Below are positions 1 through 12,336 of a DNA stretch of 12,336 nucleotides, piece after piece (positions within the stretch are counted from its first letter, which is position 1; the number at the start of each line of letters is the position of its first letter). The position numbers and the translations under genes were made by a program. Source of the stretch: Bacteroidota bacterium (lineage in GTDB: Bacteria > Bacteroidota > Bacteroidia > JACCXN01); contig JACCXN010000017.1 in NCBI GenBank assembly GCA_013696965.1, forward strand, positions 1 through 12,336. Direction: 5' to 3'. The notes below the pieces were generated by a model. That model was not told the origin of the DNA and made no database searches. It saw only the letters and a program-made list of their open reading frames with translations.

Positions 1-285
1 CTGGCTTTACTGTCAGAAAAACAAAGGCCTTGAAATATATGCATGGGTAATAATGAGTAATCATATTCATCTAGAAGTCAAAAAGAAGAATTGAGTGCTA
101 TTTTAAGAGATTTCAAAAGTTATGCAACCAAAAAAATAATAGAAGAAATTGATTCTTGTAATGAAAGCAGAAAAGAATGGATGTTGAAAATATTCAAAGA
201 TGCAGCATTCAAGCATAAAAGAAATTCGGAATATCAATTTTGGACGCATTGTTTTACCCATGAGATAAAGGCGCTACCAATCAAT
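1..285 (+). pseudogene. REP-associated tyrosine transposase (RAYT), N-terminal half, broken
   Basis: This is the N-terminal part of a Y1/HUH transposase of the RAYT type (IS200/IS605 superfamily), cut by the window start. The frame beginning at base 2 reads WLYCQKNKGLEIYAWVIMSN and then HIHL, which is the HUH metal-binding motif. That frame hits a stop at 92-94. The homology continues from base 91 in another frame (ELSAILRDFKSYATKKI, then SRKEWMLKIF and YQFW). The tyrosine at 121-123 is the likely nucleophile. Frames can be joined by adding one A to the A-run at 80-84, so a frameshift has killed the gene. Similarity fades after YQFW near 245, and from 298 the sequence is the antisense of the peptidase gene. 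The matching C-terminal half is at about 11430-11636. The exact right edge is uncertain. Confidence 0.8.
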
Positions 286-297
286 TCCAAAATAACC

Positions 298-1029
298 CTA
301 AAACCGATTAAGCTTTTCCTGTTTTATTCTCCAGTCTGGAGAGTATTTATCCAACAACCTATAAAACTTTGGGCTGTGGTTTAAATATTTCAAGTGGCAA
401 AGCTCATGGATAATTACATAATCAATACAGTCAATTGGAGCTTTTATAAGGTTTATATTCAAAGTAATATTACCCAGCTTGGTACAGCTTCCCCAACGCT
501 TCTTTAATGTTCTAAAATAAAGAGTGTTCACTTTTATTTTTTCATGCTTGGCTATATGATTCAATTTTATAAAACGATCGTTCAGTTTTTTAATGGCATG
601 TTCTTTATACCATTGCTCTATCAATTCAGCAGCTAATATCTTATCATTTTTATCAGGCATTGAAAGCCAAAAGTACTTCCCCGAAAGCTTTACACTTGGA
701 TCACCCTTGATAACCTTTAAACGATATTGTCTTCCCAAATAGAACATCGTTTCACCACTTACATAATCCTTCTTCGTTTCAAATTTTTCAATTCTCGAAA
801 ATTTCCTCACTTGCTTTTGAATCCAGGGTGCTTTATTTTCTACTTTTTGCATTATTCTGTTTAAGGTTAGTCCAGTTGGTGCTATTACCTTAATTGATTG
901 ATCAGGATGCACTTCAATACCCAGCGTTTTGCGATCACTATAATGTACTTTAAACTTTATAGTTGTTGTTCCGTATTCAATTGACAATTCACAATTGGAA
1001 AATTCAAAATTAGTTCGTTGCTCTAACAT
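298..1029 (-). CDS. YgjP-like (DUF45) zinc metallopeptidase
   Basis: The 243-residue product belongs to the YgjP-like metallopeptidase family (PF01863, related to SprT/WLM peptidases), cytosolic since no signal peptide is visible. The zinc site is HELCH at residues 208-212, with the third ligand probably H218 in NHSPKFY. The family motif KKRWGSC is at 176-182. Members are often found beside type I hsdR genes; substrate and role there are unknown. The ATG at 1029 overlaps the upstream gene's 3' end by 20 bases, indicating cotranscription and probably translational coupling. Roughly the first 17 residues are encoded by degenerate 7-base repeats (979-1014), while family-like sequence starts only at about residue 18 (EYGTTTIKFKV). 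The N-terminus may therefore have been replaced by repeat DNA. This is the last gene of the island; no clear terminator follows. Confidence 0.88.
   Translation of the reverse strand: MLEQRTNFEFSNCELSIEYGTTTIKFKVHYSDRKTLGIEVHPDQSIKVIAPTGLTLNRIMQKVENKAPWIQKQVRKFSRIEKFETKKDYVSGETMFYLGRQYRLKVIKGDPSVKLSGKYFWLSMPDKNDKILAAELIEQWYKEHAIKKLNDRFIKLNHIAKHEKIKVNTLYFRTLKKRWGSCTKLGNITLNINLIKAPIDCIDYVIIHELCHLKYLNHSPKFYRLLDKYSPDWRIKQEKLNRF
979..1014. repeat. Degenerate 7-base tandem repeats (3' side of the four-helix-bundle gene)
   Basis: Five imperfect heptamers can be read on the plus strand: AATTGAC (979-985), AATTCAC (986-992), AATTGGA (993-999), then after one extra A, AATTCAA (1001-1007) and AATTAGT (1008-1014). 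They resemble the cleaner tract at 1396-1458. They contain the stop codon of the four-helix-bundle gene and encode most of residues 6-17 of the peptidase. Confidence 0.7.
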
Positions 1030-1381
1030 ACCCTGCTTTTGAAGATTTTATAATTGATATTAAAAGCCGAAGCAATTCTTTTATACTTATATCTAATTCA
1101 TTATAACAGTTTATGTCAATGTAACCTGATTTAAATAGTAATTCAATCCAATATTCTGTTTCATTGGCTTCCTTTAATGATATTGATAATTTATGAATAA
1201 AATCAGCCTTACTTTGAGCATGTTCAGATTCCTGAATAATTGCTCCTATTGAAGTACCTGATCGTATTGCCTGTTTAGATAATATGTATTCCTTCTTTTC
1301 TATTTGCAAATACTGACCAACCTTTATAATCAACAAAGCAAATTCAAGACTTTTTGTTTTTACTATATTATCTTTTTTCAT
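1010..1381 (-). CDS. Four-helix-bundle protein (23S rRNA intervening-sequence protein family)
   Basis: A 123-residue protein of the four-helix-bundle family (TIGR02436), first known from intervening sequences of 23S rRNA and common as a free-standing gene in Bacteroidota. Visible family blocks are the N-terminal helix with SLEFALLIIKVGQYL (11-25), RSGTSIGAIIQES (40-52) and SKADFIHKLSISLKEANETEYWIELL (57-82). Function is unknown; known members form small all-helical oligomers. The frame stays open to an ATG at 1447, but those 22 extra codons are a translation of the 7-base repeat tract. I chose the ATG at 1381, preceded by an A/G-rich stretch (GAAAAGAAG). The gene sits between hsdR and the peptidase, and 7-base repeats lie on both of its sides, so it may be a later insert into an hsdR-peptidase pair. 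Confidence 0.85.
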   Translation of the reverse strand: MKKDNIVKTKSLEFALLIIKVGQYLQIEKKEYILSKQAIRSGTSIGAIIQESEHAQSKADFIHKLSISLKEANETEYWIELLFKSGYIDINCYNELDISIKELLRLLISIIKSSKAGYVRATN

Positions 1382-1395
1382 CTTCTTTTCTATTA

Positions 1396-1458
1396 AATTG
1401 ATAATTGATAATTGACAATTGACAATTGACAATTGTTCATTGTTCATTGTTCATTGTT
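1396..1458. repeat. Nine 7-base tandem repeats between hsdR and the four-helix-bundle gene
   Basis: Nine heptamers run in perfect register on the plus strand: AATTGAT twice, AATTGAC three times, AATTGTT once and CATTGTT three times. They fill most of the 83 bases between the hsdR stop and the chosen start of the four-helix-bundle gene. Because 7 is not a multiple of 3, the open frame across them gives a quasi-repeating peptide (EQLSIVNCQLSI), which explains a misleading upstream ATG at 1447. AATTG cores can pair with their neighbours, so short hairpins are possible. Such tracts are slippage-prone. Confidence 0.92.
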
Positions 1459-1464
1459 AATTAA

Positions 1465-4400
1465 TTAAAACTTATGTTTCGCTACTTTCAAAACTTCATC
1501 CAAGATCGCATCTATCTGACTAAAGGAAATCTCAACACCTAATTCTTTTCTTTTTGCTAATAAATAATCTTCCAAATCATTCTTCATCTGCTTTTGCACA
1601 TCATCGTTTCGTTTCCAGTCTCTGATGGTTAGCCTTTGAATTATCTCGGTAATTTCAACACCCATTTTAGCCAATGATTCTGTTACCGAAGAAGGAACAG
1701 GCTCAGTGCTTGCAGGTAAAATGCTCTCCGCTATTATCCCATAAAAGGCACGTGCTTCCGGTTTGCCATTTAATACAGTTGGAATACCATCATTTGATCC
1801 ATTGATAAGATTATCTCTGTTTTTTAATATCGTTTCTAAATATTGTCCTTCCGTTAATCTTCTATCTTGAAAAGCCTTGATAGTTTCATCTATCAATTGT
1901 GAGAATTTTTTATAGAATACCGGATCTTCATCCATCTTTTCAGAGATCACCTTTTTCATTTTATAGGCAATGGCATCCGCTTTAGATGCAACAGAACCTG
2001 TAACTCTCTGAACCTCTTGCTTAAATATCTCCTCATCAAAAATATTTATGGATTCTGTTATTTGCTCAACGCCTTCTGCACCAATGTAAGTGTCTAAAAG
2101 CTTTCGGACTCTTGCTTCGTATTCTTTATAGTGGATCTTTTCCGCATATCGAACGGAAACTGATGCTCTTAAACTTTGGAAAAACTTCAGTTCACTCAGA
2201 TATTGATGAATCTGTTTATCGCTGAATAATTTGTAGAATTCGTCAGATGATAAAGCAACTTGAAGATTCTTTGCAAAAGCGGTCAGTTTTTCAATAAACA
2301 AATCCCTTCTGTCTTTCGGAGCAAGGAAACGTTCCATTGCCTCAATATCTTTCTTATTGGCAACTTCCTTAAATACGTCCCACAATTCTGAATTGCGCTG
2401 GGGAAGCTTTTTAATTTCTTCCAATACATTAACTACCGTTCCAATTAAATCATGTTCATCAAATTCCTGCAAAGCACTGTATTGCGTTAAGGCAGAATCT
2501 AATTGACCAAGAATACCTACGTAATCAATAATAAATCCGAAATCCTTTCCTTCATGCAAACGGTTAACACGTGCTATTGCTTGTAAAAGATTATGTTCTG
2601 CAAGTGGTTTGGCAATATATAAAAAAGAGCAATTTGGAGAATCGAAACCGGTAAGCAGTTTACTTACAACAATTAAAAGTTCTACATCGTCATCATTGCT
2701 TTTAAATTTGCTGATTGTAGATTCCTCATAAGCTTCAGGAGTTCCGTTACGAGTGACAATGCGTTTCCAAAACTTTTGAACCTCATCATTTGGTTCTTCA
2801 TCAACTTCTTCATGATCCTCTCTCGTATCCGGTGCTGAAATTATAACAGCGGTGTTTATTTTTAATGCAGGATTGGTTTGTTCTTCAAAATACTTCTGGT
2901 ATTTCATTGCTGTTGCCTTCAATGGAACGGCAAGCATCGCTTTGAATTTTGTTCCTTTTACATTTTTGCAGAAATGTTGTGAAATATCAAATGCGATTTC
3001 TTCTACCACCTGGCCCGATTTATATATTTCTGTGAGCGAAGAAAATTTTCTTTTTAGGTCTTTAGTTTGATACATAGTCAAAGGTTCTGCTAAACGGTCG
3101 AAACCTTTATCAATTTGCCCCTGATTAACCGTTAGTTTTGCCGATCTCCCTTCATAGAGCAAAGGAACCACTGCTTTGTCTTTTACCGCCTGATTGATGG
3201 TGTATTTATCAATAAACCCACCAAACTTATCTGCTGTGCTTTTGTCTTTTTTCAAAAGTGGAGTACCTGTAAAGCCTATATAACATGCTTTTGGAAGCAC
3301 ACGTTTCATTTTGGCATGAGTAGAACCGTATTGACTTCTATGGCTCTCATCAACCAAAACAAATATATTCGAAGATTGATTGTTAAAGTCCTTTCTGTTT
3401 AAAGCACTTTCAAACTTATCTATAACCGTGGTAATAATCTCAACACCACTTTCATTTATTAACTCAATCAAATGATTTCCGCTTTTTGCTCGTAAAGCTT
3501 CTTTACCACAGGCATTAAAGGTGGAAGATATTTGCTTGTCCAAATCAATACGGTCAGTAACTATGATGATCCTTGGATTTATAATCTCTTTTTCCAAAGC
3601 GATGCTTTTTGCAAGCATTACCATTGTTAAAGATTTTCCACTTCCCTGAGTATGCCATATTACGCCACCTTTACGCTGGCCATCATTATTGAACTCTTTT
3701 ATCCTATCTAAAGAGTTCTTTACAGCTGTATATTGCTGATATCGGGCAATTTTCTTTACTCCTCCATCATACAAAGTAAATTTGAAAACCAATTCCATTA
3801 ATCTATCCGGACTGCAAAGCGAATAAAGAACTTTATCCTGTTCCGTTGGTAAGCGGTCTTCCGCTTTTATTCCATTTGCATTGGAGTTAATTATCTTTTT
3901 AACAATATGTTCAACATCTTGCTGTTCCTGCCAAAAACTCCAAAATTTAGGTTTGGTATCAATAGCTCCATATTTAACCTCATTTGGCTGAACAGCCAAC
4001 AGGAGCTGGTTATAATAAAATAATTTCGGAACACCTTGTTCTTTGCCCTGATTGCGGGTATGTTGGGAAATGCTTTCTTCAATGGAAGAATTCTTATCTC
4101 TTCTTTTATTTTCAATTACAACAAATGGAATACCGTTTACAAATAAAACGATATCCGGCCTGCGAGTATCTGTTAAACCATCAACCACATATTCATCGGT
4201 TATGTGAAATACGTTGTTATGGATGTTTTCCCAATCAATGTATTTAATAGTGAAGCTTTTTTTATCTCCCTGAATTGTTTCTTCAAAGCTTTTTCCTAAA
4301 GAAATTAAATCATACGCACGCTCATTGGTACGGACTAATCCATCATCCTGCAAGTTTTTTAATGCATGAATAGAAGCATGAATATTCCCATCAGAAAATT

Positions 4401-4596
4401 TATGCTTATTTCCTTTGTACTCAAAGCTATTTAATTCCTTCAGCCTCTCTTCTAAGATTCCCTCTAAAATAACGTTGCTTTTAATATTTCCACGTTGGCT
4501 GTCAGTTTCCTGTGGGGAAATATATTTCCAGCCAAGTTTTTGAAGCAGCAGTAAGGCAGGGAGTTGAGAATCGTTGTTTTCCTGGTAGTTAGTCAT
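1465..4596 (-). CDS. hsdR: Type I restriction enzyme, restriction/translocase subunit HsdR
   Basis: The 1043-residue product has the length and layout of a full HsdR, the ATP-driven motor and nuclease of the type I complex. The N-terminal PD-(D/E)xK nuclease shows PD at 147-148 (D148) and ExK at 162-164. The SF2 helicase core follows: Walker A HTQGSGKS at 315-322, motif II DESH at 416-419, TGTP at 443-446 and motif VI QAIARVNR at 672-679. The C-terminal third is mainly helical and should contact the methyltransferase core. No catalytic residue is missing and there is no frameshift. Start is the ATG at 4596; no Shine-Dalgarno or Bacteroidota promoter consensus is obvious directly upstream. It is cut off from hsdS by 1.5 kb of repeat/transposase DNA, so its expression must come from read-through or from a promoter I could not identify. 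Confidence 0.97.
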   Translation of the reverse strand: MTNYQENNDSQLPALLLLQKLGWKYISPQETDSQRGNIKSNVILEGILEERLKELNSFEYKGNKHKFSDGNIHASIHALKNLQDDGLVRTNERAYDLISLGKSFEETIQGDKKSFTIKYIDWENIHNNVFHITDEYVVDGLTDTRRPDIVLFVNGIPFVVIENKRRDKNSSIEESISQHTRNQGKEQGVPKLFYYNQLLLAVQPNEVKYGAIDTKPKFWSFWQEQQDVEHIVKKIINSNANGIKAEDRLPTEQDKVLYSLCSPDRLMELVFKFTLYDGGVKKIARYQQYTAVKNSLDRIKEFNNDGQRKGGVIWHTQGSGKSLTMVMLAKSIALEKEIINPRIIIVTDRIDLDKQISSTFNACGKEALRAKSGNHLIELINESGVEIITTVIDKFESALNRKDFNNQSSNIFVLVDESHRSQYGSTHAKMKRVLPKACYIGFTGTPLLKKDKSTADKFGGFIDKYTINQAVKDKAVVPLLYEGRSAKLTVNQGQIDKGFDRLAEPLTMYQTKDLKRKFSSLTEIYKSGQVVEEIAFDISQHFCKNVKGTKFKAMLAVPLKATAMKYQKYFEEQTNPALKINTAVIISAPDTREDHEEVDEEPNDEVQKFWKRIVTRNGTPEAYEESTISKFKSNDDDVELLIVVSKLLTGFDSPNCSFLYIAKPLAEHNLLQAIARVNRLHEGKDFGFIIDYVGILGQLDSALTQYSALQEFDEHDLIGTVVNVLEEIKKLPQRNSELWDVFKEVANKKDIEAMERFLAPKDRRDLFIEKLTAFAKNLQVALSSDEFYKLFSDKQIHQYLSELKFFQSLRASVSVRYAEKIHYKEYEARVRKLLDTYIGAEGVEQITESINIFDEEIFKQEVQRVTGSVASKADAIAYKMKKVISEKMDEDPVFYKKFSQLIDETIKAFQDRRLTEGQYLETILKNRDNLINGSNDGIPTVLNGKPEARAFYGIIAESILPASTEPVPSSVTESLAKMGVEITEIIQRLTIRDWKRNDDVQKQMKNDLEDYLLAKRKELGVEISFSQIDAILDEVLKVAKHKF

Positions 4597-4766
4597 TTCA
4601 ATAATACTTTAGAGATTTTTTCATGCTGGTAAAATATTTGTAGCGTTGCATCTGAGATTCATCTTTCCAATATTCGTTAGAATGGAAGAAGGAGTTCGGA
4701 AGACGCTAACCCAAGATGGTTGGCGTTTTCTGCTTAATGTATTGGACCGGGGTGTCCCTGATCGGT
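4597..4766. other. Unassigned intergenic stretch upstream of hsdR
   Basis: No recognisable gene was found. The plus strand has a short open frame from 4613 to 4765 without an early ATG (internal ATG at 4682, stop TAA at 4763-4765), whose peptide ends in LLNVLDRGVPDR. A minus-strand open frame also crosses the stretch and runs on into the palindromic repeats. Neither matches a family I know. The plus-strand frame ends just before a plus-oriented terminator hairpin, so it could be the 3' relic of an old plus-strand gene or repeat element. Confidence 0.4.
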
Positions 4767-4806
4767 AAGAAGCCAAACCATGTGTTTGGCTTCTTGTTTT
4801 TAAAAA
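4767..4806 (+). terminator. Rho-independent terminator-like hairpin, plus direction
   Basis: A perfect 12-bp stem, AAGAAGCCAAAC (4767-4778) pairing with GTTTGGCTTCTT (4784-4795) across a 5-base loop, is followed on the plus strand by GTTTTTAAAAA. On the minus strand the sequence after the stem has no U-tract. It should therefore stop plus-strand transcription, although every intact gene nearby is on the minus strand. It may shield hsdR from antisense transcripts or be left over from a lost plus-strand gene. Confidence 0.75.
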
Positions 4807-4815
4807 CATCTTAAA

Positions 4816-5033
4816 ATCCCATAGGGATGCGACTTTGGTAACCCGAATAATCATTTCCATGAAATCCCATCGGGATGATATTCTGGTAATAACCGAATAA
4901 AAATAATTCGCAAAAATCACGTAAAGATTTCTCCTTTTGGGAGAGAAGCCGTTATCATTTATCTCCAAATCCCGTAGGGATGATATTCTGGTAATAACTG
5001 AATAAAAACCATTGCGCAAAATCCCGTAGGGAT
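4816..5033 (+). repeat. REP-like palindrome array, left of the transposase gene
   Basis: Five copies of a 13-base palindrome ATCCC-NNN-GGGAT occur at 4816-4828, 4864-4876, 4916-4928 (degenerate), 4969-4981 and 5021-5033. Better copies are followed by a tail like GATATTCTGGTAATAACYGA, so the unit is about 50 bases and has an orientation. They lie downstream of the IS200-like gene with their tails pointing towards it. The spacing recalls CRISPR, but the stretches between palindromes are themselves repeated and there are no cas genes. Confidence 0.85.
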
Positions 5034-5040
5034 GATATTT
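4968..5040. repeat. 73-base direct repeat, left copy
   Basis: These 73 bases recur at 5829-5901 with a single difference (GATGATATT here, GATGGTATT there). Each copy contains two ATCCCGTAGGGAT palindromes and the linker between them. The two copies stand in the same orientation on either side of the transposase gene, 861 bases apart. Confidence 0.9.
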
Positions 5041-5056
5041 TAGCATAAGGCTTATT

Positions 5057-5521
5057 TTAAATATCCCCATAAAATTCAAACAAATATTTTTCTTCATGTT
5101 CAATCTCAAAGTTGTTTAACATTTCCAGGTATTCTTCCTTAAAGGATTTTTTTTTGTGATGCTCTTCCTGTTTCATTATATAATTGATTACCGCATTCCT
5201 CTGGCTCCTACTGTATGAAAATGCCCCATATCCTTCCTGCCATTGAAACTTACCTTTTATAAATTTTTTATCATTGATCCATTTAGAACTATTTGCTTTT
5301 ACTTTTTGCAGTAATTGGGAAACGCTCAGTGCAGGTGGCAGCCCGAAAAATATATGAACATGGTCCTGCCATCCTCCAACTGCAAGTGATTTCGCTTCGG
5401 TTTGAATGATGCCCGATATATATCGGTGCAATTCATCCCGCCATTCTTTGGTAATAATATTTTCGCGGCCTTTTACAGCGAATACCGCCTGGATTGAAAT
5501 TTGAGAATAGGTGTTTGCCAT
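5057..5521 (-). CDS. tnpA: IS200/IS605-type Y1 (HUH) transposase
   Basis: A 154-residue single-domain Y1 transposase (Transposase_17, PF01797) that would nick and rejoin single-stranded DNA at hairpins. The HUH motif is HVH at 54-56 (GGWQDHVHIFFGLPP), and the nucleophile is most likely Y114 in INYIMKQEEHH, with Q118 in the usual YxxxQ position. The length is complete and no frameshift is seen. The frame extends 5 codons further to an ATG at 5536, but that start lies inside a palindrome and the family normally begins at MANTYSQI, so I use 5521. There is no accessory tnpB and no strong promoter. The gene is flanked on both sides by ATCCC-NNN-GGGAT palindromes in opposite orientation and by 73-base direct repeats, so it is probably the enzyme that spreads these palindromes. 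Confidence 0.9.
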   Translation of the reverse strand: MANTYSQISIQAVFAVKGRENIITKEWRDELHRYISGIIQTEAKSLAVGGWQDHVHIFFGLPPALSVSQLLQKVKANSSKWINDKKFIKGKFQWQEGYGAFSYSRSQRNAVINYIMKQEEHHKKKSFKEEYLEMLNNFEIEHEEKYLFEFYGDI

Positions 5522-5534
5522 AAAGATAAATGTC

Positions 5535-5761
5535 ATCCCTGACGGGATTTTAATATTTTTTAATTTAATTTTCTACCAAAAGATCGTCCCTACGGGACTT
5601 TAAATGGTTTATTTTTCTGCTACCAATATTTCATCCCTACGGGATTTAATATTTTCCGTTTTTTCTGATACCATAATTTAATCTCTACCAAAATGCCATC
5701 CCTAAATGGATTTAATGTTGTTCAGTTTTTTCTGTTACCATAATAATATCCCTAACGGGAT
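5535..5761 (-). repeat. REP-like palindrome array, right of the transposase gene (inverted orientation)
   Basis: Palindromes lie at 5535-5548 (4-base loop), 5586-5598, 5633-5645, 5698-5711 (degenerate) and 5748-5761. Their tails (for example TACCAATATTTC before the palindrome) are the reverse complement of the tails left of the transposase, so the two arrays face each other. The 5586-5598 copy reads GTCCCTACGGGAC: the outer A-T pair has become G-C with both arms changed, so pairing is kept. Confidence 0.8.
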
Positions 5762-5793
5762 TAACCATTTTTTTACAATCCCGGCAAAATGAA

Positions 5794-5941
5794 ATCCCGG
5801 TAATACCCATATAATAACAATCGTCAGCAATCCCGTAGGGATGGTATTCTGGTAATAACTGAATAAAAACCATTGCGCAAAATCCCGTAGGGATGATATT
5901 TCTCTCCGTTTATCGCAATAAAAATTAAATGTTTTGCTCAT
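5794..5941. repeat. Long direct repeat (about 148 bases), first copy
   Basis: This block begins with ATCCCGGTAATACCC and ends with AAATGTTTTGCTCAT, and is repeated at 6001-6149 with scattered differences, mostly in the middle. It contains palindromes at 5830-5842 and 5882-5894 and includes the right copy of the 73-base repeat (5829-5901). Both copies read in the same direction; about 60 bases with one inverted palindrome (5973-5985) lie between them. Confidence 0.85.
5829..5901. repeat. 73-base direct repeat, right copy
   Basis: This matches 4968-5040 at 72 of 73 positions by eye. Together the copies bracket the IS200-like gene, so homologous recombination between them could remove the transposase and leave one copy behind. 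Confidence 0.9.
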
Positions 5942-6000
5942 GTTTTTATATTTTTTCTGCTACCAATATTTCATCCCTACGGGATTAACCATTTGTATTA

Positions 6001-6149
6001 ATCCCGGTAATACCCGAATAATAACAATCGTCAGCAATCCCATAGGGATGGTATTCTGGTAATAACTGAATAAAACCCAATCTCAAAAAATCCCGTAGGA
6101 ATGATATTTCTCTCCGTTCATCGCAATAAAAATTAAATGTTTTGCTCAT
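6001..6149. repeat. Long direct repeat (about 149 bases), second copy, abutting hsdS
   Basis: This is the second copy of the 5794-5941 block, with palindromes at 6037-6049 (ATCCCATAGGGAT) and 6090-6102 (one arm mismatch). It ends three bases before the hsdS stop codon. Transcripts leaving hsdS on the minus strand therefore enter a series of hairpins at once, which could block 3' exonucleases or reduce read-through into hsdR. That effect is inferred. Confidence 0.82.
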
Positions 6150-6152
6150 AAT

Positions 6153-7394
6153 CTATATTTTTATCCTCACTTTACCTGTAAGTAAAAGCTGCATTAAGCC
6201 TTTTTTTTGAAGTTTTAATTTTTCAAGTTGTGATTTTAATTTTTGAATTTCTATATCTGCAAAGGATAAAACTGATCCAATTTTGACTTGTTCATTTTTA
6301 TCATTTGGAATTGAAATTTCTAACTCCTTTATATCTGTACTTGAAACTGAAGTAAACGTACTGCCCTGTTCAAATTCAACCCATTTCGGTTCAAAGTTTA
6401 ATAAGATTTGATATAAAAATTCACTATCAATCTGATTTGCCTTGAAAGCACAAATTCCTCGCCCAATACAAGCATGATGAAGAGATTTTGCTATTGCACC
6501 CACTGGGGCTCTTACGGTCATTAAAACATCTCCCACATTGCAAACCTTAGTTGGTTTGTTTGTATAAATTCTCGGTGTTGACACTCTGTTTTTAATATCT
6601 GCATTTCCTTGAAGTAGTGGAATGCCATTTCCATCTGAATTGTAAGAGATTGAATCAGGTGATTGTCCCATCACAATATTAGTAACATCACCTAACAAAA
6701 CATTTCCCCATTCAGCATTCGCAAACTCCTTAAACCTAACCTTCCCTGTAAGCAAATTTTGCATTAAAGCTTTCTTGCGTTTTTCTTTTTTTGAAATAAG
6801 AAGATTTGTTTTTTCTATTGCAACATCGCAGGTGCTGAGGATTTCGGCAATGGCGGTTTGTTCGGAAAAATTATTGGGGATAGCGACCTTTATTTTCCTA
6901 AGAAGACCAATAGAGATCTCTTGTAGCGCAGAACCATTTAAAGATTGTTCTAATATTTTTCTTGTATGCATTGAGCTAATCTGCTGCTGAAGAAAATCAG
7001 GAGATATCTTTTTAAGAGGTGAAATTAACGCCACTCCTCTTGTCAAATTTGCACCAACAAGAGAAATTGGAACTTTCGCAACTTCTCCAACTTTTCCACG
7101 AAGAGGCATTATTAAATCATCTTTTTTTAAAATTGTCCTTTTATAACTTTGACTAATTTCGGTTGTTGTAGTAATTAAATCATCCTCATTAATTTTGTTT
7201 TCATTTATATTTATAACTCTAATACATTTTACTCCTCCTTCCACATTAATTCCTGTTTGAACTATACCATAAGAAATGGGTCTTTCTTTTGAAGTAATTT
7301 CGTGAAGTTCGTAACATGTCCAATCCTTCGGTATTAAACCAACAGGTGAAAATGTAAAATCTGTTTTTGTTTTCACTTCGGTTGGCAGCATCAT
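6153..7394 (-). CDS. hsdS: Type I restriction enzyme specificity subunit HsdS, two TRDs
   Basis: This 413-residue protein has the normal size of HsdS, which reads the two halves of the DNA target and holds two HsdM subunits. The layout is TRD1 (about 20-180), a central helical repeat ending KKALMQNLLTGKVR (207-220), TRD2 (about 228-365) and a C-terminal helical repeat ending QKKGLMQLLLTGKVR (396-410). These near-identical ends of the two helices are the classic internal duplication of HsdS. TRD2 carries the common motif GDVLMTVRAPVG (288-299). Start ATG at 7394 is followed by a second ATG, so the start is ambiguous by one codon. It lies 37 bases downstream of the phosphoesterase stop. Which sequence it recognises cannot be read from the protein. 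Confidence 0.95.
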   Translation of the reverse strand: MMLPTEVKTKTDFTFSPVGLIPKDWTCYELHEITSKERPISYGIVQTGINVEGGVKCIRVININENKINEDDLITTTTEISQSYKRTILKKDDLIMPLRGKVGEVAKVPISLVGANLTRGVALISPLKKISPDFLQQQISSMHTRKILEQSLNGSALQEISIGLLRKIKVAIPNNFSEQTAIAEILSTCDVAIEKTNLLISKKEKRKKALMQNLLTGKVRFKEFANAEWGNVLLGDVTNIVMGQSPDSISYNSDGNGIPLLQGNADIKNRVSTPRIYTNKPTKVCNVGDVLMTVRAPVGAIAKSLHHACIGRGICAFKANQIDSEFLYQILLNFEPKWVEFEQGSTFTSVSSTDIKELEISIPNDKNEQVKIGSVLSFADIEIQKLKSQLEKLKLQKKGLMQLLLTGKVRIKI

Positions 7395-7431
7395 TGTTTT
7401 AAATTTTTTGTATGGAATTCCATGTGTTCAT

Positions 7432-8199
7432 TTAAACATTGTCTATTTCAATTATTTTATCGGTCTGGAACAGCTGGTGTTCGTGCTGCTGCACATACCC
7501 CAGCTGGTTGGTTATCAGTTGCGTGCTTCCTATTTCAAAGCCTGGTGTATTTTGATGGTGGTGCCCGTATATCCAAAAACTAATTTCAGATGGTTCTATT
7601 ACATTAAAAAGTTCCACTGCAAATGCATCGCTCAAAATACTTCCTTTATATTGTTCAGGGTAATTTTTGTAAGTAGGTACATGATGGGTAACTACTATTA
7701 TTTTTTCATTGGTATTCCTTTCCAGCTCGCTGTTTATAAACATTAAACTTTCTGCATGCATCTGGTTATAAGGTTCTGACGAAAAGCGTTTACCATTATA
7801 TTTAATCAGGTGAAAATCGTTCATCTCCCTTTCTATTTGCCATTGGTGTTCCGGGCTAATTTTTGACCAGAGAGTGGAAAAGATAAACCGGACATTTTCA
7901 TGGGCAATAGAAATGTTGTTTACCAAAAATACATTTTCCCTGATTTTTTCATTGATAGTTCCGCATTTTTTAGTGGCATCGAAATAATAATATTCATGAT
8001 TGCCTGGTATCCAGTAAGTAACCTGAAAATGGTCGGATACATATTTAAAAAAATCTTTGTGCTTGTCCATCTGTGTAAAAAGTACAATATCACCCGCAAG
8101 AATCAATATATCGCCCTTTGGTTGTAAAGGTTTTTCTTTTAGGAATTTTTTATTTTCAGGAAACTCCAGATGCAGGTCAGATGCGTATTGTATTTTCAT
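7432..8199 (-). CDS. Calcineurin-like metallophosphoesterase
   Basis: A complete 255-residue phosphoesterase of the calcineurin-like superfamily, cytosolic (no signal or membrane segment). All dimetal-site motifs are present: DLH at 8-10, GD at 36-37, GNHE at 66-69, THH at 171-173 and GHHH at 212-215. The substrate (phosphoprotein, nucleotide, nucleic acid end or other) cannot be told. Only 2 bases separate its ATG from the hsdM stop, so it is translated as part of the hsd operon and sits between hsdM and hsdS, where the complex genes are usually adjacent. No Shine-Dalgarno stands out; coupling to hsdM termination is likely. A role in defence, for example on modified or damaged ends or as a toxin-like effector, is only speculation. 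Confidence 0.9.
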   Translation of the reverse strand: MKIQYASDLHLEFPENKKFLKEKPLQPKGDILILAGDIVLFTQMDKHKDFFKYVSDHFQVTYWIPGNHEYYYFDATKKCGTINEKIRENVFLVNNISIAHENVRFIFSTLWSKISPEHQWQIEREMNDFHLIKYNGKRFSSEPYNQMHAESLMFINSELERNTNEKIIVVTHHVPTYKNYPEQYKGSILSDAFAVELFNVIEPSEISFWIYGHHHQNTPGFEIGSTQLITNQLGYVQQHEHQLFQTDKIIEIDNV

Positions 8200-8201
8200 T
8201 T

Positions 8202-9776
8202 TTAGTTTAAACCTAACTCTTTTAAATAATTGCTTAATTTTTTTTTCACCTCAACCAATTCACCTTCCAGCACCTCAATTTCGGCTTGTACTTCTTTTAC
8301 ATTAATTTCCTCTTCTGCTATAAAGCTGTCAACATAACGAGGAATGTTAAGATTAAAATCATTTCCTTCAATCTCTTCCAAAGTGGCTACATGACAATAT
8401 TTTGCAATTTCTTTATTTGCTTTAAAAGTTTCAACAATTTTATTGATGTGTGTTTCTCTTAATTTGTTTTGTTTTTTGCCGGCTTCAAAATCTTTACTTG
8501 CATCAATAAAAAGCACGTTTTCGTTTTTCTTCCCTTTATTAAAAATAAGAATAGCAGCCGGAATGCCGGTTCCATAAAACAAGTTGGAGGGTAAGCCTAT
8601 AACAGCCTCTAATAAATTCTCTTTTATTAATTTTTCCCTGATGGCTCTTTCTGAGCTGCCCCTGAATAAAACACCATGTGGTACAATTATTCCCACCTTG
8701 CCTGTTTTATCAATTGCTGTATCAATCATGTGCAATACAAAAGCATAATCACCTTTTGTTTTCGGAGGCACACCTCTTAAAAAACGTTTGTATGGATCAT
8801 TTACTGCATGCTCTGCACCCCATTTATCTAAAGAGAAGGGAGGATTAGCTGCCACAACATCAAACTTCATTAATGAATCACCCTCAATTAATTTAGGGCT
8901 GTTAATCGTATCACCCCATTCAATTTTTGCTTCGGCATTATGGAGGAACATATTTATTTTTCCTAAAGCCCAAGTGTTCCCATTACTCTCTTGTCCCCAT
9001 AAAGAACAGTCACGAACATGCGTTCCTTTTTTAAATGGTACTTCCTCAGCAACAGTAATCAACAATGAACCTGAACCACATGCAGGATCACAAATACGAT
9101 CTCCGGCTTTTGGTGATAAAAGTTTTGCTAACAAAACAGAAACCTCATGAGGCGTATAAAATTCACCACCTTTTTTTCCTGCACCCTCTGCAAACCTTTC
9201 TATCAGGTACATGTAGGCGTTACCTATTATGTCTTCACTTCCTATAACAGAAGGACGGAAGTTTAATTTGGGCTTATCAAAATCCTCGATCAATAATTTT
9301 AATCTCCGGTTACGATCTTTGGTATCTCCTAACTTAGAGTTCGAATTAAAATCAAGGTCGCCAAATACGCCCTCTAATTTTGCCTTATTATCATCTTCAA
9401 TTTTCTCGAATATCTTATTCAAGAATTCGCCAAGGTTCGTGTGGTTCTTATTTTCCACAATGAAATCAAAGGTGCAATCTTCGGATAAAATAAAAGGCTC
9501 ACGGCTCATCTTACGTGTTATCAGCTCTTCATCATTACCATATTGCTTTTTAAACTCTTCGTATTTATCCTTGTGCTTATCGCTTAAGTATTTAAAGAAG
9601 AGGAAAGCAAGGATGTAATTTTTATAATCCTGCGAGTCAATTGCTCCTCTAAAGCTATCACAGGCAGCCCATAGAGTTGAGTTGATTTCTGTTTGCGTTA
9701 ATTTAATTTTATTTACAATAGGAACTTTCCCTATAGAAAGTGATTCTTCTTGTGTTGGCTTCGTTGTTTTTTTCAT
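8202..9776 (-). CDS. hsdM: Type I restriction enzyme, DNA adenine methyltransferase subunit HsdM
   Basis: The 524-residue product is a full-length HsdM, the N6-adenine methyltransferase of the type I complex. The N-terminal helical domain (about 30-170, with LWAACDSFRG and FLFFKYLSD) precedes the catalytic domain: GEFYTPHEV (204-212), SAM-binding motif I DPACGSGS (230-237) and catalytic motif IV NPPF (311-314). The C-terminal tail from about 488 is a charged coiled coil (EVQAEIEVLEGELVEVKKKL) of the kind that contacts HsdS. Its ATG overlaps the TGA of the RhuM gene in an ATGA (9773-9776), so the two are translationally coupled. It is followed 2 bases later by the phosphoesterase. No inactivating change is visible. 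Confidence 0.97.
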   Translation of the reverse strand: MKKTTKPTQEESLSIGKVPIVNKIKLTQTEINSTLWAACDSFRGAIDSQDYKNYILAFLFFKYLSDKHKDKYEEFKKQYGNDEELITRKMSREPFILSEDCTFDFIVENKNHTNLGEFLNKIFEKIEDDNKAKLEGVFGDLDFNSNSKLGDTKDRNRRLKLLIEDFDKPKLNFRPSVIGSEDIIGNAYMYLIERFAEGAGKKGGEFYTPHEVSVLLAKLLSPKAGDRICDPACGSGSLLITVAEEVPFKKGTHVRDCSLWGQESNGNTWALGKINMFLHNAEAKIEWGDTINSPKLIEGDSLMKFDVVAANPPFSLDKWGAEHAVNDPYKRFLRGVPPKTKGDYAFVLHMIDTAIDKTGKVGIIVPHGVLFRGSSERAIREKLIKENLLEAVIGLPSNLFYGTGIPAAILIFNKGKKNENVLFIDASKDFEAGKKQNKLRETHINKIVETFKANKEIAKYCHVATLEEIEGNDFNLNIPRYVDSFIAEEEINVKEVQAEIEVLEGELVEVKKKLSNYLKELGLN

Positions 9777-10777
9777 GACAATTTATTTTTATTCCCCTTT
9801 AACTTTTTAACTTCTTTATCAAAATCACTTATAAAATTCGCATCTTGAATGATACGGTATTTTTCATATTCTTTTTCTGCTAACTTCTCGGCTATTTTAT
9901 GACGAATTTTGCCGGCATCTTTCAGCACTTTGTAGTCGTTAAAACTTAGAAAAGCATCTAATTTTTCAACCCAATCATTCATAGCCATAGGAACTTGTTT
10001 TTTCGTCTGGTTTTCGGCATAATCCAGGTACATAGAAACAACCCTGTTTAGTTCATCAATTTCCTGCTGGTTCAAGTAGTTTTTTGCTACAGCAACGTCC
10101 GATTTAAGAATTTTGCCATTTGGAGCGTTTTTCCATGTTGAAAGCCCCATATTTAACTTTAAGGAATTGGCCCGTGTTTTAACAATTTCAGCAGCGGTAT
10201 TACCGGTTATTGCCCAATGCAGTTTGTTTTGAACAGTTTTGTAAAATGTTCGTGTAATTTCGGCTTGAGGATCATAGTCTATACTGCATTGTGAATATAT
10301 ATCTGTTATTTTTTGGTAGAACCTTCTTTCACTTGCACGTATTTCCCGTATCCGCTCAAGCAGTTCATCAAAATAATCCCTTCCGAAGTTTTTCCCTTGT
10401 TTCAAACGTTCGTCATCCATTACAAAACCCTTAATAATGAACTCGCGGAGCGTTTTAGTAGCCCATATTCTAAAACGGGTTGCTTCAACTGAATTCACTC
10501 TATAGCCCACAGCAATTATTGCATCAAGGGTATAAAAATTTGTATTGTAGTTTTTTCCATCAGAAGCAGTTATCCGGAATTTCCGGATAACTGAATCTTC
10601 CTCTAATTCATTGGATTTAAATATGTTTTGTAAATGTTCATTAATTGTTCTCACATCTACATTAAATAGTTCTGCCATTTTTTTTTGAGACAGCCAGAAG
10701 GTTTCATTCTCAAAAAAAACTTCAATGTGTCCATCACCTTCAGCGGTACTGTATAAAAGAATTTCAAATTTTTCCAT
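9773..10777 (-). CDS. RhuM family protein (virulence RhuM-like)
   Basis: A 334-residue member of the RhuM family (PF13310). The name comes from a Salmonella SPI-3 gene, but family members are widespread in type I restriction loci and have no established biochemical function. The N-terminal part has a helix-turn-helix-like stretch (WLSQKKMAELFNVDVRTINEHLQNIF, about 28-53). It is followed by the family block FYTLDAIIAVGYRVNS and ATRFRIWATKTLREFIIKGFVMDDERL (81-125) and a helical C-terminal half. This suggests DNA binding rather than a secreted virulence factor; no signal peptide is seen. Its start overlaps the HsdS-like gene by 14 bases and its stop overlaps hsdM by 4, so it is locked into the hsd transcript. 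A regulator or assembly partner of the methyltransferase is plausible but unproven. Confidence 0.92.
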   Translation of the reverse strand: MEKFEILLYSTAEGDGHIEVFFENETFWLSQKKMAELFNVDVRTINEHLQNIFKSNELEEDSVIRKFRITASDGKNYNTNFYTLDAIIAVGYRVNSVEATRFRIWATKTLREFIIKGFVMDDERLKQGKNFGRDYFDELLERIREIRASERRFYQKITDIYSQCSIDYDPQAEITRTFYKTVQNKLHWAITGNTAAEIVKTRANSLKLNMGLSTWKNAPNGKILKSDVAVAKNYLNQQEIDELNRVVSMYLDYAENQTKKQVPMAMNDWVEKLDAFLSFNDYKVLKDAGKIRHKIAEKLAEKEYEKYRIIQDANFISDFDKEVKKLKGNKNKLS

Positions 10778-11339
10778 TACTAATTTGTATCAAGGCATTA
10801 TAGATTATTTTTTGTCTGAGATTAGTTATATCGTTTGAAATTTGTATTTCTTTCTGCCACAAGTTATGTATTTCAGTAATACGCTCTTGGTTTTCTTTTG
10901 ATGGAATATCAACATTCATGTTCTCTAAAGTAGCTTTGTTGATATTTGTAATCATAGTCCCTTCCTTGCCTGTGTGCAAATACCCCTGAGCCTTTTCCTG
11001 GTTTATATACCATGCTAAAAATTCAGGACTAATTTTTTCACTAACAACTCGTATTATAAAGAAAACCGAAAGTGCAATAGCCGTATAATTCTTATTGAAA
11101 ACCAAAGCATAATTGTTTGCTCCTTTCGTGATAAAAAGAATATCACCTTTTTGCAGGAACTGCTTTTGCGGTATTCCGGTACTTTTTATTCTATGGGGAG
11201 AACCGGAGATTTCGGTGTAATTGTTCTTAAGGTCTTTTAATTGAATAGCACAAACATCCCCTGAGAGGTCGTTCTCCACACGGCTCCGAACCGTGTGGCC
11301 AGAAAAAATTTCGACTATATCTTTTAATAACACTTGCAT
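10764..11339 (-). CDS. Half-size HsdS-like specificity protein (single TRD)
   Basis: The 191-residue product looks like one half of an HsdS: one target-recognition domain with the usual pattern (QKQFLQKGDILFITKG at 58-73, EKISPEFLAWYIN at 101-113, NINKATLENMNVDIPSKENQERI at 132-154), then one helical conserved region (155-183) ending LRQKIIYNALIQI. It lacks the LLTGKVR ending of the full HsdS at 6153-7394, so it is not a simple duplicate. The frame is open upstream to an ATG at 11378, but the promoter (11359-11389) lies within that extension, so I choose the ATG at 11339. It is the first gene of the operon and overlaps rhuM by 14 bases. It may dimerise to act as a second specificity subunit or serve RhuM/HsdM in another way; degenerate remnant is less likely since the frame is intact. 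Confidence 0.8.
   Translation of the reverse strand: MQVLLKDIVEIFSGHTVRSRVENDLSGDVCAIQLKDLKNNYTEISGSPHRIKSTGIPQKQFLQKGDILFITKGANNYALVFNKNYTAIALSVFFIIRVVSEKISPEFLAWYINQEKAQGYLHTGKEGTMITNINKATLENMNVDIPSKENQERITEIHNLWQKEIQISNDITNLRQKIIYNALIQISNGKI
11276..11298 (-). other. GC-rich hairpin early in the HsdS-like gene
   Basis: CCACACGG (11276-11283) and CCGTGTGG (11291-11298) form a perfect 8-bp stem with a 7-base loop, in otherwise AT-rich sequence about 40-60 bases inside the first gene of the operon. It encodes part of GHTVRSRVE. No U-tract follows on either strand, so it is not a terminator. It could slow ribosomes or be a chance product of codon choice. Confidence 0.45.
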
Positions 11340-11356
11340 CAGAATTTGTTTGCTGA
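11338..11356. repeat. 19-base direct repeat, inner copy (at the start codon)
   Basis: ATCAGAATTTGTTTGCTGA occurs here and again, identically, at 11398-11416, exactly 60 bases away. This copy includes two bases of the start codon of the HsdS-like gene (11337-11339) and its 5' leader. Confidence 0.93.
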
Positions 11357-11358
11357 GG

Positions 11359-11389
11359 CAAATGTATATAATAGGCAATATGAAACAAA
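11359..11389 (-). promoter_or_regulatory. Bacteroidota-type promoter of the hsd operon
   Basis: Read on the minus strand, TTTG (11389-11386), a 19-base spacer and TACATTTG (11366-11359) match the Bacteroidota primary sigma factor consensus (-33 TTTG, -7 TAnnTTTG) with no mismatch. Transcription would start about 5-10 bases downstream, leaving a leader of roughly 10-20 bases before the ATG at 11339. It lies wholly between the two copies of the 19-base direct repeat. Confidence 0.82.
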
Positions 11390-11397
11390 TAAAATTA

Positions 11398-11416
11398 ATC
11401 AGAATTTGTTTGCTGA
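11398..11416. repeat. 19-base direct repeat, outer copy
   Basis: This is an exact copy of 11338-11356, on the far side of the promoter. It stands close to where the C-terminal remnant of the split transposase begins, so it may mark the island's right border or be an operator site. Confidence 0.93.
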
Positions 11417-11429
11417 ATAATTAATATGC

Positions 11430-11636
11430 GAAATTCAATGGGGATTAAATTGATTCTGCTATAATGAAAAAGGCAAAAATTAGAATACATCCATGATAAC
11501 CCGGAAAGAGTCCCGCAATAACTGCGGGATTGAAAAGCCTGAAGAATATCGGTATTCAAGCGCAAAAGATTATGCAGGTGAAAAAGGGTTGTTGGAAATG
11601 GAAATAGTAATGAGAAAATGGAAAACTTACAAATAG
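11430..11636 (+). pseudogene. REP-associated tyrosine transposase (RAYT), C-terminal half, broken
   Basis: This is the C-terminal part of the RAYT gene whose N-terminal half is at 1-285. The frame from 11474 reads QKLEYIHDNPE, the family block QKLDYIHNNPVEAG, and runs into a stop at 11519-11521. The homology resumes from 11532 in another frame as EKPEEYRYSSAKDYAGEKGL, and ends at the TAG 11634-11636. Upstream of 11474 the match weakens and shifts frame again (11430-11473 resembles the PIELDSAIM region at the DNA level). The break at 11511-11529 coincides with a small hairpin, and removing about 16 bases there restores the frame. The left edge is approximate. With the left half it accounts for nearly the whole of a RAYT protein. 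Confidence 0.82.
11511..11529. repeat. Small hairpin inserted in the transposase remnant
   Basis: TCCCGCA (11511-11517) pairs with TGCGGGA (11523-11529) across a 5-base loop ATAAC. It sits exactly where the transposase frame breaks, between the codons for NPER and GIEKPEE. It may be an inserted REP-like palindrome. Confidence 0.6.
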
Positions 11637-11882
11637 GCCAGAGGCCTTGTTAATATGGGCGTAGCGGGACGCTACGCTCAACAGAGGAGATACAGAATAC
11701 ACAGTGATGGATTATATTTTGTACACTAAGCACCAGCACACAATTCTGGCCCGGCAGCTTAGCCTTACGGGGGCTGATTTGCAGCGTTCTTGTCCACCGG
11801 CACAAAAGGGAATAGAAAGCACTGACTTTTCAAAATGCACCAAGCACTCCACTTGAGAGTATGCAGTGTTACGGCACGTTTT
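11637..11882. other. Unassigned, more GC-rich stretch
   Basis: No recognisable gene. The base composition is visibly richer in G and C than in the genes to the left. A short plus-strand open frame (ATG 11707 to TGA 11854-11856, 49 codons) has no ribosome binding site at a normal distance and no family I know; the minus strand is also partly open. Related AAGCAC-containing words recur at 11728, 11818 and 11843. It may be a dispersed repeat or a structured RNA; nothing here decides it. Confidence 0.35.
11659..11677. repeat. Hairpin downstream of the transposase remnant
   Basis: GCGTAGCG (11659-11666) and CGCTACGC (11670-11677) form an 8-bp stem with a 3-base loop, 22 bases after the RAYT stop codon. 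RAYT genes are typically flanked by the REP palindromes they act on, so this may be a REP of that family, distinct from the ATCCC-NNN-GGGAT type. A weaker terminator-like stem (AGGCC/GGCCT, 11635-11647) overlaps the stop codon. Confidence 0.55.
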
Positions 11883-12166
11883 TTAATATTTGTAATTCAG
11901 TCCAATATTTAGGCCTATGATATTTGAAGGATTAAAGTCTAGATAATCTAATATAGGTGTTATAGAGTATCTAAAATTTGGTTCAACAAAAAAGTTTAGT
12001 CTTTCTGTTAAGTAAAATTCAGTCCCGAAAGAAAGAGAGATTTAATTCTGTTGATATTTTAAATTATTGTCTTCAAATATGTCAGTTGAGAAATCATTCC
12101 CATTTATCCGTCTGTCTTGTCTTTTAATACTAAAAGTTGTAAATGTCCCTGCTAATAAGTAAGCGT
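11883..12166 (-). pseudogene. Outer-membrane beta-barrel protein, C-terminal fragment with in-frame stop
   Basis: One minus-strand frame reads about 94 codons with a single internal TAA at 12042-12044. After that stop it runs for 52 residues (FGTEFYLTERLNFFVEPNFR, then a strand-like end GLNIGLNYKY) to the TAA at 11883-11885. Alternating hydrophobic/aromatic residues and a terminal aromatic are typical of the last strands of a Bacteroidota outer-membrane beta barrel. Upstream of the stop it reads LLAGTFTTFSIKRQDRRING and related codons until the insertion-sequence end near 12167. The gene has therefore lost its 5' part and gained a stop codon. The family assignment rests on pattern only. Confidence 0.6.
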
Positions 12167-12336
12167 GGATCAAGCGGAAAAGTTGGGGGCTGCAAATTTC
12201 TAAGCATAAATATTTGCTAATCTGAACAAGAAAAAACTTACATTTCTAACTCCTCTAAAAGCAGACCTAAAAGCTTTTATTTTTGCATTGAAAGATTCTG
12301 CCGATGCATTGGTGCTACGATTATTAAAGTAATTTA
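12167..12336 (-). mobile_element. End of an ISL3-like (ISAon1-type) insertion sequence
   Basis: The transposase gene described in the next entry is followed on the minus strand by about 33 bases running to GGATCAAGC at 12167 (plus strand), a plausible terminal inverted repeat (GGATCAAGCGGAAAAGTTGG on the plus strand). The beta-barrel reading frame seems to meet the element here. The other end lies outside the window, so neither the inverted repeat partner nor a target duplication can be checked. Confidence 0.6.
12200..12336 (-). CDS. ISL3-like DDE transposase, C-terminal end (partial)
   Basis: The last 44 residues of a transposase enter from the right edge and stop at TAG 12200-12202. The fragment contains RSTNASAESFNAKIKAF and FRGVRNVSFFLFRLANIYA, the C-terminal signature of ISL3-family DDE transposases of the type common in Bacteroidota. 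The glutamate in NASAESFNAKIK is probably the third acidic residue of the DDE triad. The rest of the gene is outside the window, so whether it is intact is unknown. Confidence 0.85.
   Translation of the reverse strand, partial: NYFNNRSTNASAESFNAKIKAFRSAFRGVRNVSFFLFRLANIYA

Follow-up and report, generated by a model that had tools for sequence, protein, structure and literature searches.

Little is known about how type I restriction-modification (R-M) systems regulate their expression on entering a new host whose DNA is unmethylated. Among transcriptional regulators of such systems, we found descriptions of RptR (PMC12255303) and of one C-like protein from Mycoplasma gallisepticum (PMC12707154). 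RptR is encoded by the first gene of an island of enteropathogenic Escherichia coli (EPEC), with the composition RptR-HsdM-HsdS-DarTG-HsdR-M48, and binds palindromes in its own promoter (PMC12255303). Half-HsdS proteins have been shown to dimerize and, together with HsdM, to read palindromic bipartite targets as active methyltransferases; in a passing remark, such dimers were likened to dimeric transcription factors (PMC6158711). Here we analyze a stretch of 12,336 bp (hereafter, the window) that comprises an entire contig (C17) of the 3.86-Mb genome assembly of a Bacteroidota bacterium, of class Bacteroidia as judged by its named homologues. The window carries a type I R-M operon that starts with a gene for a stand-alone half-HsdS and that very probably interrupts a RAYT transposase gene.

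The genes of this operon, all on the minus strand, are arranged in the order of transcription as half-hsdS, rhuM, hsdM, a phosphoesterase gene, hsdS, an element consisting of a Y1 transposase gene and repetitive extragenic palindromes (REP), hsdR, a four-helix gene and ygjP. As in the EPEC island, a small first gene, with repeated palindromes at its promoter, is accompanied by hsdM, hsdS, cargo, hsdR and a gene for an M48-type peptidase. The resemblance to RptR is confined to gene position and operator layout: RptR is an all-helical repressor of 79 amino acids (aa) that acts on the 6-bp sequence TAGCTA, whereas the first gene in the window encodes a half-HsdS of about 190 aa, modeled as a recognition domain with a long helix and matching HsdS structures, and is associated with bipartite palindromes of 13-18 bp. 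The controller (C) proteins of type II systems similarly exert autogenous control as products of a gene of the R-M locus, with operator sites in their own promoter, but these are lambda cI relatives of the helix-turn-helix type, in contrast to the type I recognition domain that the half-HsdS represents.

The half-hsdS gene (10764-11339, minus strand) encodes a protein of 191 aa. Its structural model (pLDDT 93.9) consists of one target-recognition domain followed by a single 40-residue helix (residues 148-187), and the fold and profile matches in PDB, namely Esub1, 3OKG and 1YF2, identify it as an HsdS half. The best structural match is Esub1 (8VSR; Z 20.1, rmsd 3.0, 181 residues aligned), which shares the one-domain-plus-helix form over the whole length, at 18% identity, and which was solved together with the protein Prx (PDB 8VSQ and 8VSR). 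A literature search for a paper on Esub1 found none. The Prx bound to Esub1 in 8VSR is possibly paratox, a protein of streptococcal phages, in which case half-HsdS proteins may be targets of phages. The natural and engineered half-HsdS described previously (the EcoDXXI truncation and the half-S of Staphylococcus aureus CC398; PMC6158711) likewise possess one recognition domain and one conserved helix; these are truncated or engineered subunits for methylation, whereas the protein in the window is the product of a conserved gene that stands alongside a full-length hsdS in one operon. We considered and rejected the possibility that half-hsdS is a disrupted gene, given that the aligned copies are all near-uniform in length and share the domain edge at which they begin; cassette switching between the half-length and full-length hsdS found no support either, the two being only 24% identical across 143 residues.

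A single-domain HsdS of approximately 182-198 aa is encoded by the first gene in all 24 Bacteroidota loci examined, the window included; in some of these loci, a cargo gene stands between half-hsdS and hsdM. The same gene is the first in 13 of the 14 plasmid loci (Proteobacteria and Campylobacterota), with a Deinococcus plasmid as the exception. The 13 plasmid proteins are annotated as "restriction endonuclease subunit S" in 12 cases and as "hypothetical protein" in one.

Upstream of half-hsdS, sequence inspection revealed a promoter of the Bacteroidota type, TTTG-N19-TACATTTG (11359-11389, minus strand), which is conserved in the related locus L114. This promoter lies between two identical candidate operators on the minus strand, at 11399-11416 and 11339-11356, each with the sequence TCAGCAAACAAATTCTGA (TCAG-N10-CTGA); the second copy overlaps the half-hsdS ATG by one base, its last. 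The locus that is most closely related to the operon (L110, in genome G203) retains the promoter and both palindromes (site identity 18/18 and 17/18). Across the genome analyzed here, the exact site occurs twice, both times at this promoter, and the next best match contains two mismatches. In the majority of the half-HsdS loci, two bipartite palindromes bracket the promoter, in the same layout and in other letters: CAGT-N9-ACTG twice in L116, AGT-N8-ACT twice in L115, GTAG-N5-CTAC in a large group of Bacteroidota, and CTGTAG-N5/6-CTACAG in Alphaproteobacteria. In the GTAG loci of Bacteroidota, the second palindrome begins 22-28 bases 5' of the start; in the other loci, it overlaps or adjoins the start codon.

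The recurrence of these palindromes was assessed with fixed patterns. The pattern TTTGTA-N7-TAC, defined on two loci (L128 and L131) and counted in the promoter regions of a further 20 loci, yielded 16 exact matches compared to 0.05 expected, and twin matches with at most one mismatch in 8 held-out loci compared to 0.02 expected; 192 kb of position-strand background contained one exact match. The pattern CTGTA-N7/8-TACAG, defined on L139 and counted in 12 held-out plasmid loci with 300 shuffles per locus, gave 10 exact matches and 7 twin loci, and zero matches both in the shuffles and in 136 kb of background sequence.

The conserved half-hsdS gene adjoins conserved bipartite palindromes, and half-HsdS dimers are known to read sites of this kind; hence the half-HsdS is most simply viewed as a protein with its own targets. 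The gene also shows the layout of an autogenous regulator, being the first in the operon and having repeated palindromes in its own promoter. Given the dimerization of half-HsdS, the placement of the palindromes and the precedent of RptR in the same operon position, our best reading, for and against which the case is about evenly balanced, is that the half-HsdS, perhaps together with HsdM, binds these sites and subjects the operon to autoregulation, like RptR in E. coli. Under this scenario, two half-HsdS molecules, with or without HsdM, would associate via their single long helices and recognize the two bipartite palindromes around the promoter. Transcription would be repressed when the second site, adjacent to the -7 box and extending to the start codon, is occupied, resulting in negative feedback; repression is favored because the palindromes sit beside the -33 and -7 boxes. 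Extended to the relatives, the proposal, which we likewise hold at roughly even strength, is that a widespread group of type I operons of Bacteroidota and Proteobacteria is regulated by a half-HsdS dimer, alone or with HsdM, that binds twin palindromes at its own promoter. An R-M recognition module would then have turned into a transcription factor, with operators that are possibly methylation-sensitive.

Several observations weigh against autoregulation by the half-HsdS. The motifs were first spotted by eye in the same promoter set and then fixed on one or two loci, and because all promoters had been viewed before the patterns were fixed, the hold-out counts are not blind. When twin palindromes were searched for in each promoter without restriction and compared to shuffles, the results were mostly non-significant. 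Furthermore, no clear twin site was found in the promoters of L117, L118, L120, L121, L137, L140, L147 and L150.

Under a rival reading, the half-HsdS is not a regulator and instead confers specificity on a second methyltransferase (HsdM2 + half-HsdS2) whose target is bipartite and palindromic, in which case the promoter sites would be merely methylated or incidental. In its favor, engineered half-HsdS dimerize and form active methyltransferases with HsdM (PMC6158711), and GTAG-N5-CTAC offers an adenine in each half-site, as is the case in type I targets. The restriction of the exact sites to the promoter in this genome, and their fixed places around the promoter across phyla, argue against this possibility, as does the conservation of the protein: the half-HsdS is 65% identical to its counterpart in L110, compared to about 30% for the full-length HsdS, and is in this respect unlike a freely diversifying specificity gene. 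We therefore regard a separate methyltransferase role as unlikely, although a methyltransferase that also acts as a regulator would unite both readings.

The binding of the twin palindromes by an unrelated repressor, encoded either by the host or by the cargo, appears comparably doubtful. The EPEC operon does possess a dedicated small repressor, RptR, as the product of its first gene (PMC12255303), and DNA-binding proteins are frequent among the cargo. The layout, however, is common to Bacteroidota and Alphaproteobacteria, for which a single host repressor is unlikely, and RhuM is missing from most of the loci. The only sequence-recognizing genes that are common to the loci with these sites are those for half-HsdS, HsdM and full-length HsdS, and the latter is highly variable.

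In the literature searched, which did not extend to most subscription papers, no description of a half-HsdS or truncated HsdS as a regulator was found, and the combination of half-HsdS and twin operators appears to represent a novel variation on R-M control. Should the half-HsdS prove to be a regulator, many of the genes that carry the annotation "restriction endonuclease subunit S" may encode transcription factors, with targets legible in their own promoters; moreover, each such promoter would show the palindrome that is read by a given recognition domain, which would be useful for decoding type I specificity.

The second principal finding concerns the site occupied by the operon. A reading of the window made from the sequence alone had proposed that the two edges hold the halves of one RAYT-type transposase gene, with frame breaks in both, and this proposal was borne out in its main points. 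The left (5') fragment spans positions 1-249 on the plus strand: frame 1 translates to ...LRDFKSYATKKIIEEIDSCNESRKEWMLKIFKDAAFKHKRNSEYQFW, and DNA similarity to intact homologues extends up to approximately base 249. The 5' end of the gene, with the start codon, is located on another contig, C6, of which positions 1-105 are identical to window positions 1-105 in reverse; there, the protein begins with MPTGYQIKEQ... and a REP palindrome lies upstream. On the same strand and in the proper order, the right (3') fragment (11430-11636) includes the stop codon: DNA similarity to the homologues restarts at about 11430, KLEYIHDNP is encoded at about 11474, and IEKPEEYRYSSAKDYAGEKGLLEMEIVMRKWKTYK, followed by the stop, at 11526-11636. 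A read-through query, with X at the unreadable residues, was matched over residues 1-188 by uninterrupted genes in other genomes (G373, G219 and G008; E-values of about 1e-95 to 1e-98), well above chance similarity; its 5' part, completed from a paralogue on contig C58, is matched by named relatives at up to 89% identity. Intact homologues of 188 aa span both halves in one piece, without gap or overlap. As to the family, an intact homologue (L060) matches Y1_Tnp (PF01797) at 5.9e-09, and the HIH motif is legible in the window (SNHIHL). The palindrome GCGTAGCGGGACGCTACGC is present upstream of the gene on C6 and, in a matching copy, 3' of the gene at 11659-11677. Bacteroidota RAYT genes likewise encode Y1 transposases of 188 aa with the HIH motif, and are flanked by GCGTAGCGGGACGCTACGC palindromes on either side; the copy in the window differs in being a pseudogene interrupted by an 11-kb insert. 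Single-base insertions at two places and a 7-nt deletion following HIHL disrupt the left fragment; the right fragment contains several indels, including a small palindrome, TCCCGCAATAACTGCGGGA, at 11511-11529, a stretch that is about 10 bases shorter in the homologues and in the C58 paralogue. With frameshifts in both halves in addition to the insert, this is a pseudogene of the RAYT family, which has presumably decayed since the insertion.

The interruption falls inside the codons of the conserved YQFWTHENHA motif. When the DNA was aligned to five intact homologues, the end of the left fragment and the start of the right one fell in the same column: the reference reads ACACAT|GAAAATCATGC, and the window reads ...GGACGCAT (to 249) and GAAATTCA... 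(from 11430). Because the right fragment is decayed, the position of the junction is uncertain by about 10 bases. Taken together, these observations make us confident that one REP-flanked RAYT gene has been interrupted by the type I R-M operon, as an insert of approximately 11.18 kb on the opposite strand.

The genome contains several RAYT copies, so the edge fragments might come from different copies that flank the R-M operon by chance. The chief point in favor of two source copies, and one that weighs against a single split gene, is the uneven identity to the C58 paralogue, which keeps both gene ends, has an internal deletion of its own and is matched by both fragments: about 82-84% on the left compared to 96% on the right. 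In the left coding core, identity to C58 reaches 86-94% over much of the length, so the unevenness is modest, and we read the difference as ordinary variation or gene conversion. The fragments are complementary to within about 10 nt of a 564-nt gene, with neither gap nor overlap, belong to the same 188-aa subfamily, share strand and order, and carry REP palindromes only at their outer ends, which makes the derivation from two copies very unlikely.

No mark of the act of insertion was seen at the junctions, a point that counts against this interpretation. No word longer than 6 bp is common to both junctions, and therefore no target duplication is visible; no terminal repeats were found at the ends of the insert; and its open reading frames include no integrase, the only transposase being internal. 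The insert accordingly lacks the features of a transposon or integrative element, such as an integrase or terminal transposase of its own, terminal repeats and target duplication. Of the check on the junction that the sequence-only reading had called for, the location of the junction was obtained, at one column, and a target duplication was not seen. The edges of the insert are those of the operon itself, just 5' of the promoter and just 3' of the ygjP stop codon; the sequence 3' of ygjP at the left end (250-297) contains no recognizable terminal repeat. Delivery of the operon into the RAYT gene by the internal REP/Y1 element, or by another transposon, is highly improbable, less likely still than a derivation from two RAYT copies. 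The internal element (4800-6150, minus strand) does comprise a Y1 transposase gene (5057-5536) with eight REP-like repeats (AAATCCCGTAGGGATGATATT, the consensus, and variants), but it is placed between hsdS and hsdR rather than at the ends of the insert, which bear no repeats of this element and share no exact word longer than 6 bp. BLASTP detected no similarity between the internal Y1 transposase and the split RAYT.

Horizontal acquisition of the operon is supported by its relationships, given that the nearest HsdM and HsdR come from another order and have no counterpart in its own. In the G203 locus, identity is 90% for HsdM, 85% for HsdR and 70% for YgjP, in addition to the values for the two HsdS given above; G203 belongs to another order of the same class. 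The order of the present genome holds three genomes, and the two others, which belong to the same family and are 81-86% complete, contain HsdM matches of 30% identity or less. In a search at the class level, HsdM above the cut was detected in 20 of the 395 genomes. The same gene order is found in other Bacteroidota and on proteobacterial plasmids. DNA similarity to the G203 locus breaks off at approximately 11425, 5' to operator copy 1, and at the stop codon of ygjP, which indicates that hardly any DNA besides the operon was inserted. The operon would have been acquired horizontally, entering by illegitimate recombination or on a carrier since lost, and the transposase gene would have decayed afterwards. 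The suggestion that RAYT genes can be landing sites was not upheld beyond this single case: none of nine other related R-M loci has RAYT sequence in its flanks, so RAYT is not a usual target of this operon. Disruption of a RAYT gene by an R-M island adds a new case to a known class of events; the split gene gives the size and the ends of one acquired defense island, which is useful and ordinary.

The earlier description of everything between the RAYT halves as a minus-strand hsd locus holds insofar as hsd genes fill the insert; cargo genes are present as well, and the best limits are 250-11429. With genes for HsdR, HsdM and a full-length HsdS side by side in a single locus, the insert qualifies as a type I R-M defense operon, and these three subunits would restrict unmodified DNA as is usual for type I systems. 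Following half-hsdS on the minus strand, a RhuM-family gene (9773-10777) occupies a cargo position before hsdM and overlaps its neighbors by a few bases. The N6-adenine methyltransferase gene hsdM (8202-9776) is separated from the full-length hsdS, which encodes two recognition domains (6153-7394), by cargo that encodes a calcineurin-like metallophosphoesterase (7432-8199). Library scans identified the restriction subunit gene hsdR (1465-4596). The final gene, ygjP (298-1029), encodes a YgjP/SprT-like M48-type metallopeptidase (Pfam YgjP-like, 1.7e-59), with a homologue in the equivalent place in L110-L113.

Between hsdR and ygjP, library scans and locus comparison identified an extra gene for a four-helix-bundle protein of the 23S rRNA intervening-sequence family (1010-1447, minus strand). 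This gene is bordered by repeats of the CAATTGACAATTG type at 978-997 and 1402-1458, and in L129 an apparent member of the same family is found in a different position, between half-hsdS and hsdM (1110-1490); these repeat borders and the different position suggest that the four-helix genes move as small mobile units. In L110, L112, L113 and L137-L148, the slots between hsdM, hsdS and hsdR hold changing cargo, including SIR2-like, Shedu, Abi, TIGR04141, DUF3800, kinase and RhuM genes, among others (compare DarTG of the EPEC island). In L156, a TIR-like gene lies between half-hsdS and hsdM.

The window gave no match to Rfam families. Beyond the RAYT gene, positions 11770-11871 are a non-coding repeat of about 100 bp, copies of which are present on more than 10 other contigs, mostly at 76-92% identity. 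A frameshifted C-terminal fragment at 11893-12150 on the minus strand could be the flanking gene that had been taken for a beta-barrel gene. The sequence at 12167-12336 is multi-copy, identical on several contigs, and is probably the end of an insertion sequence; its multi-copy nature accounts for the end of the contig at 12,336.

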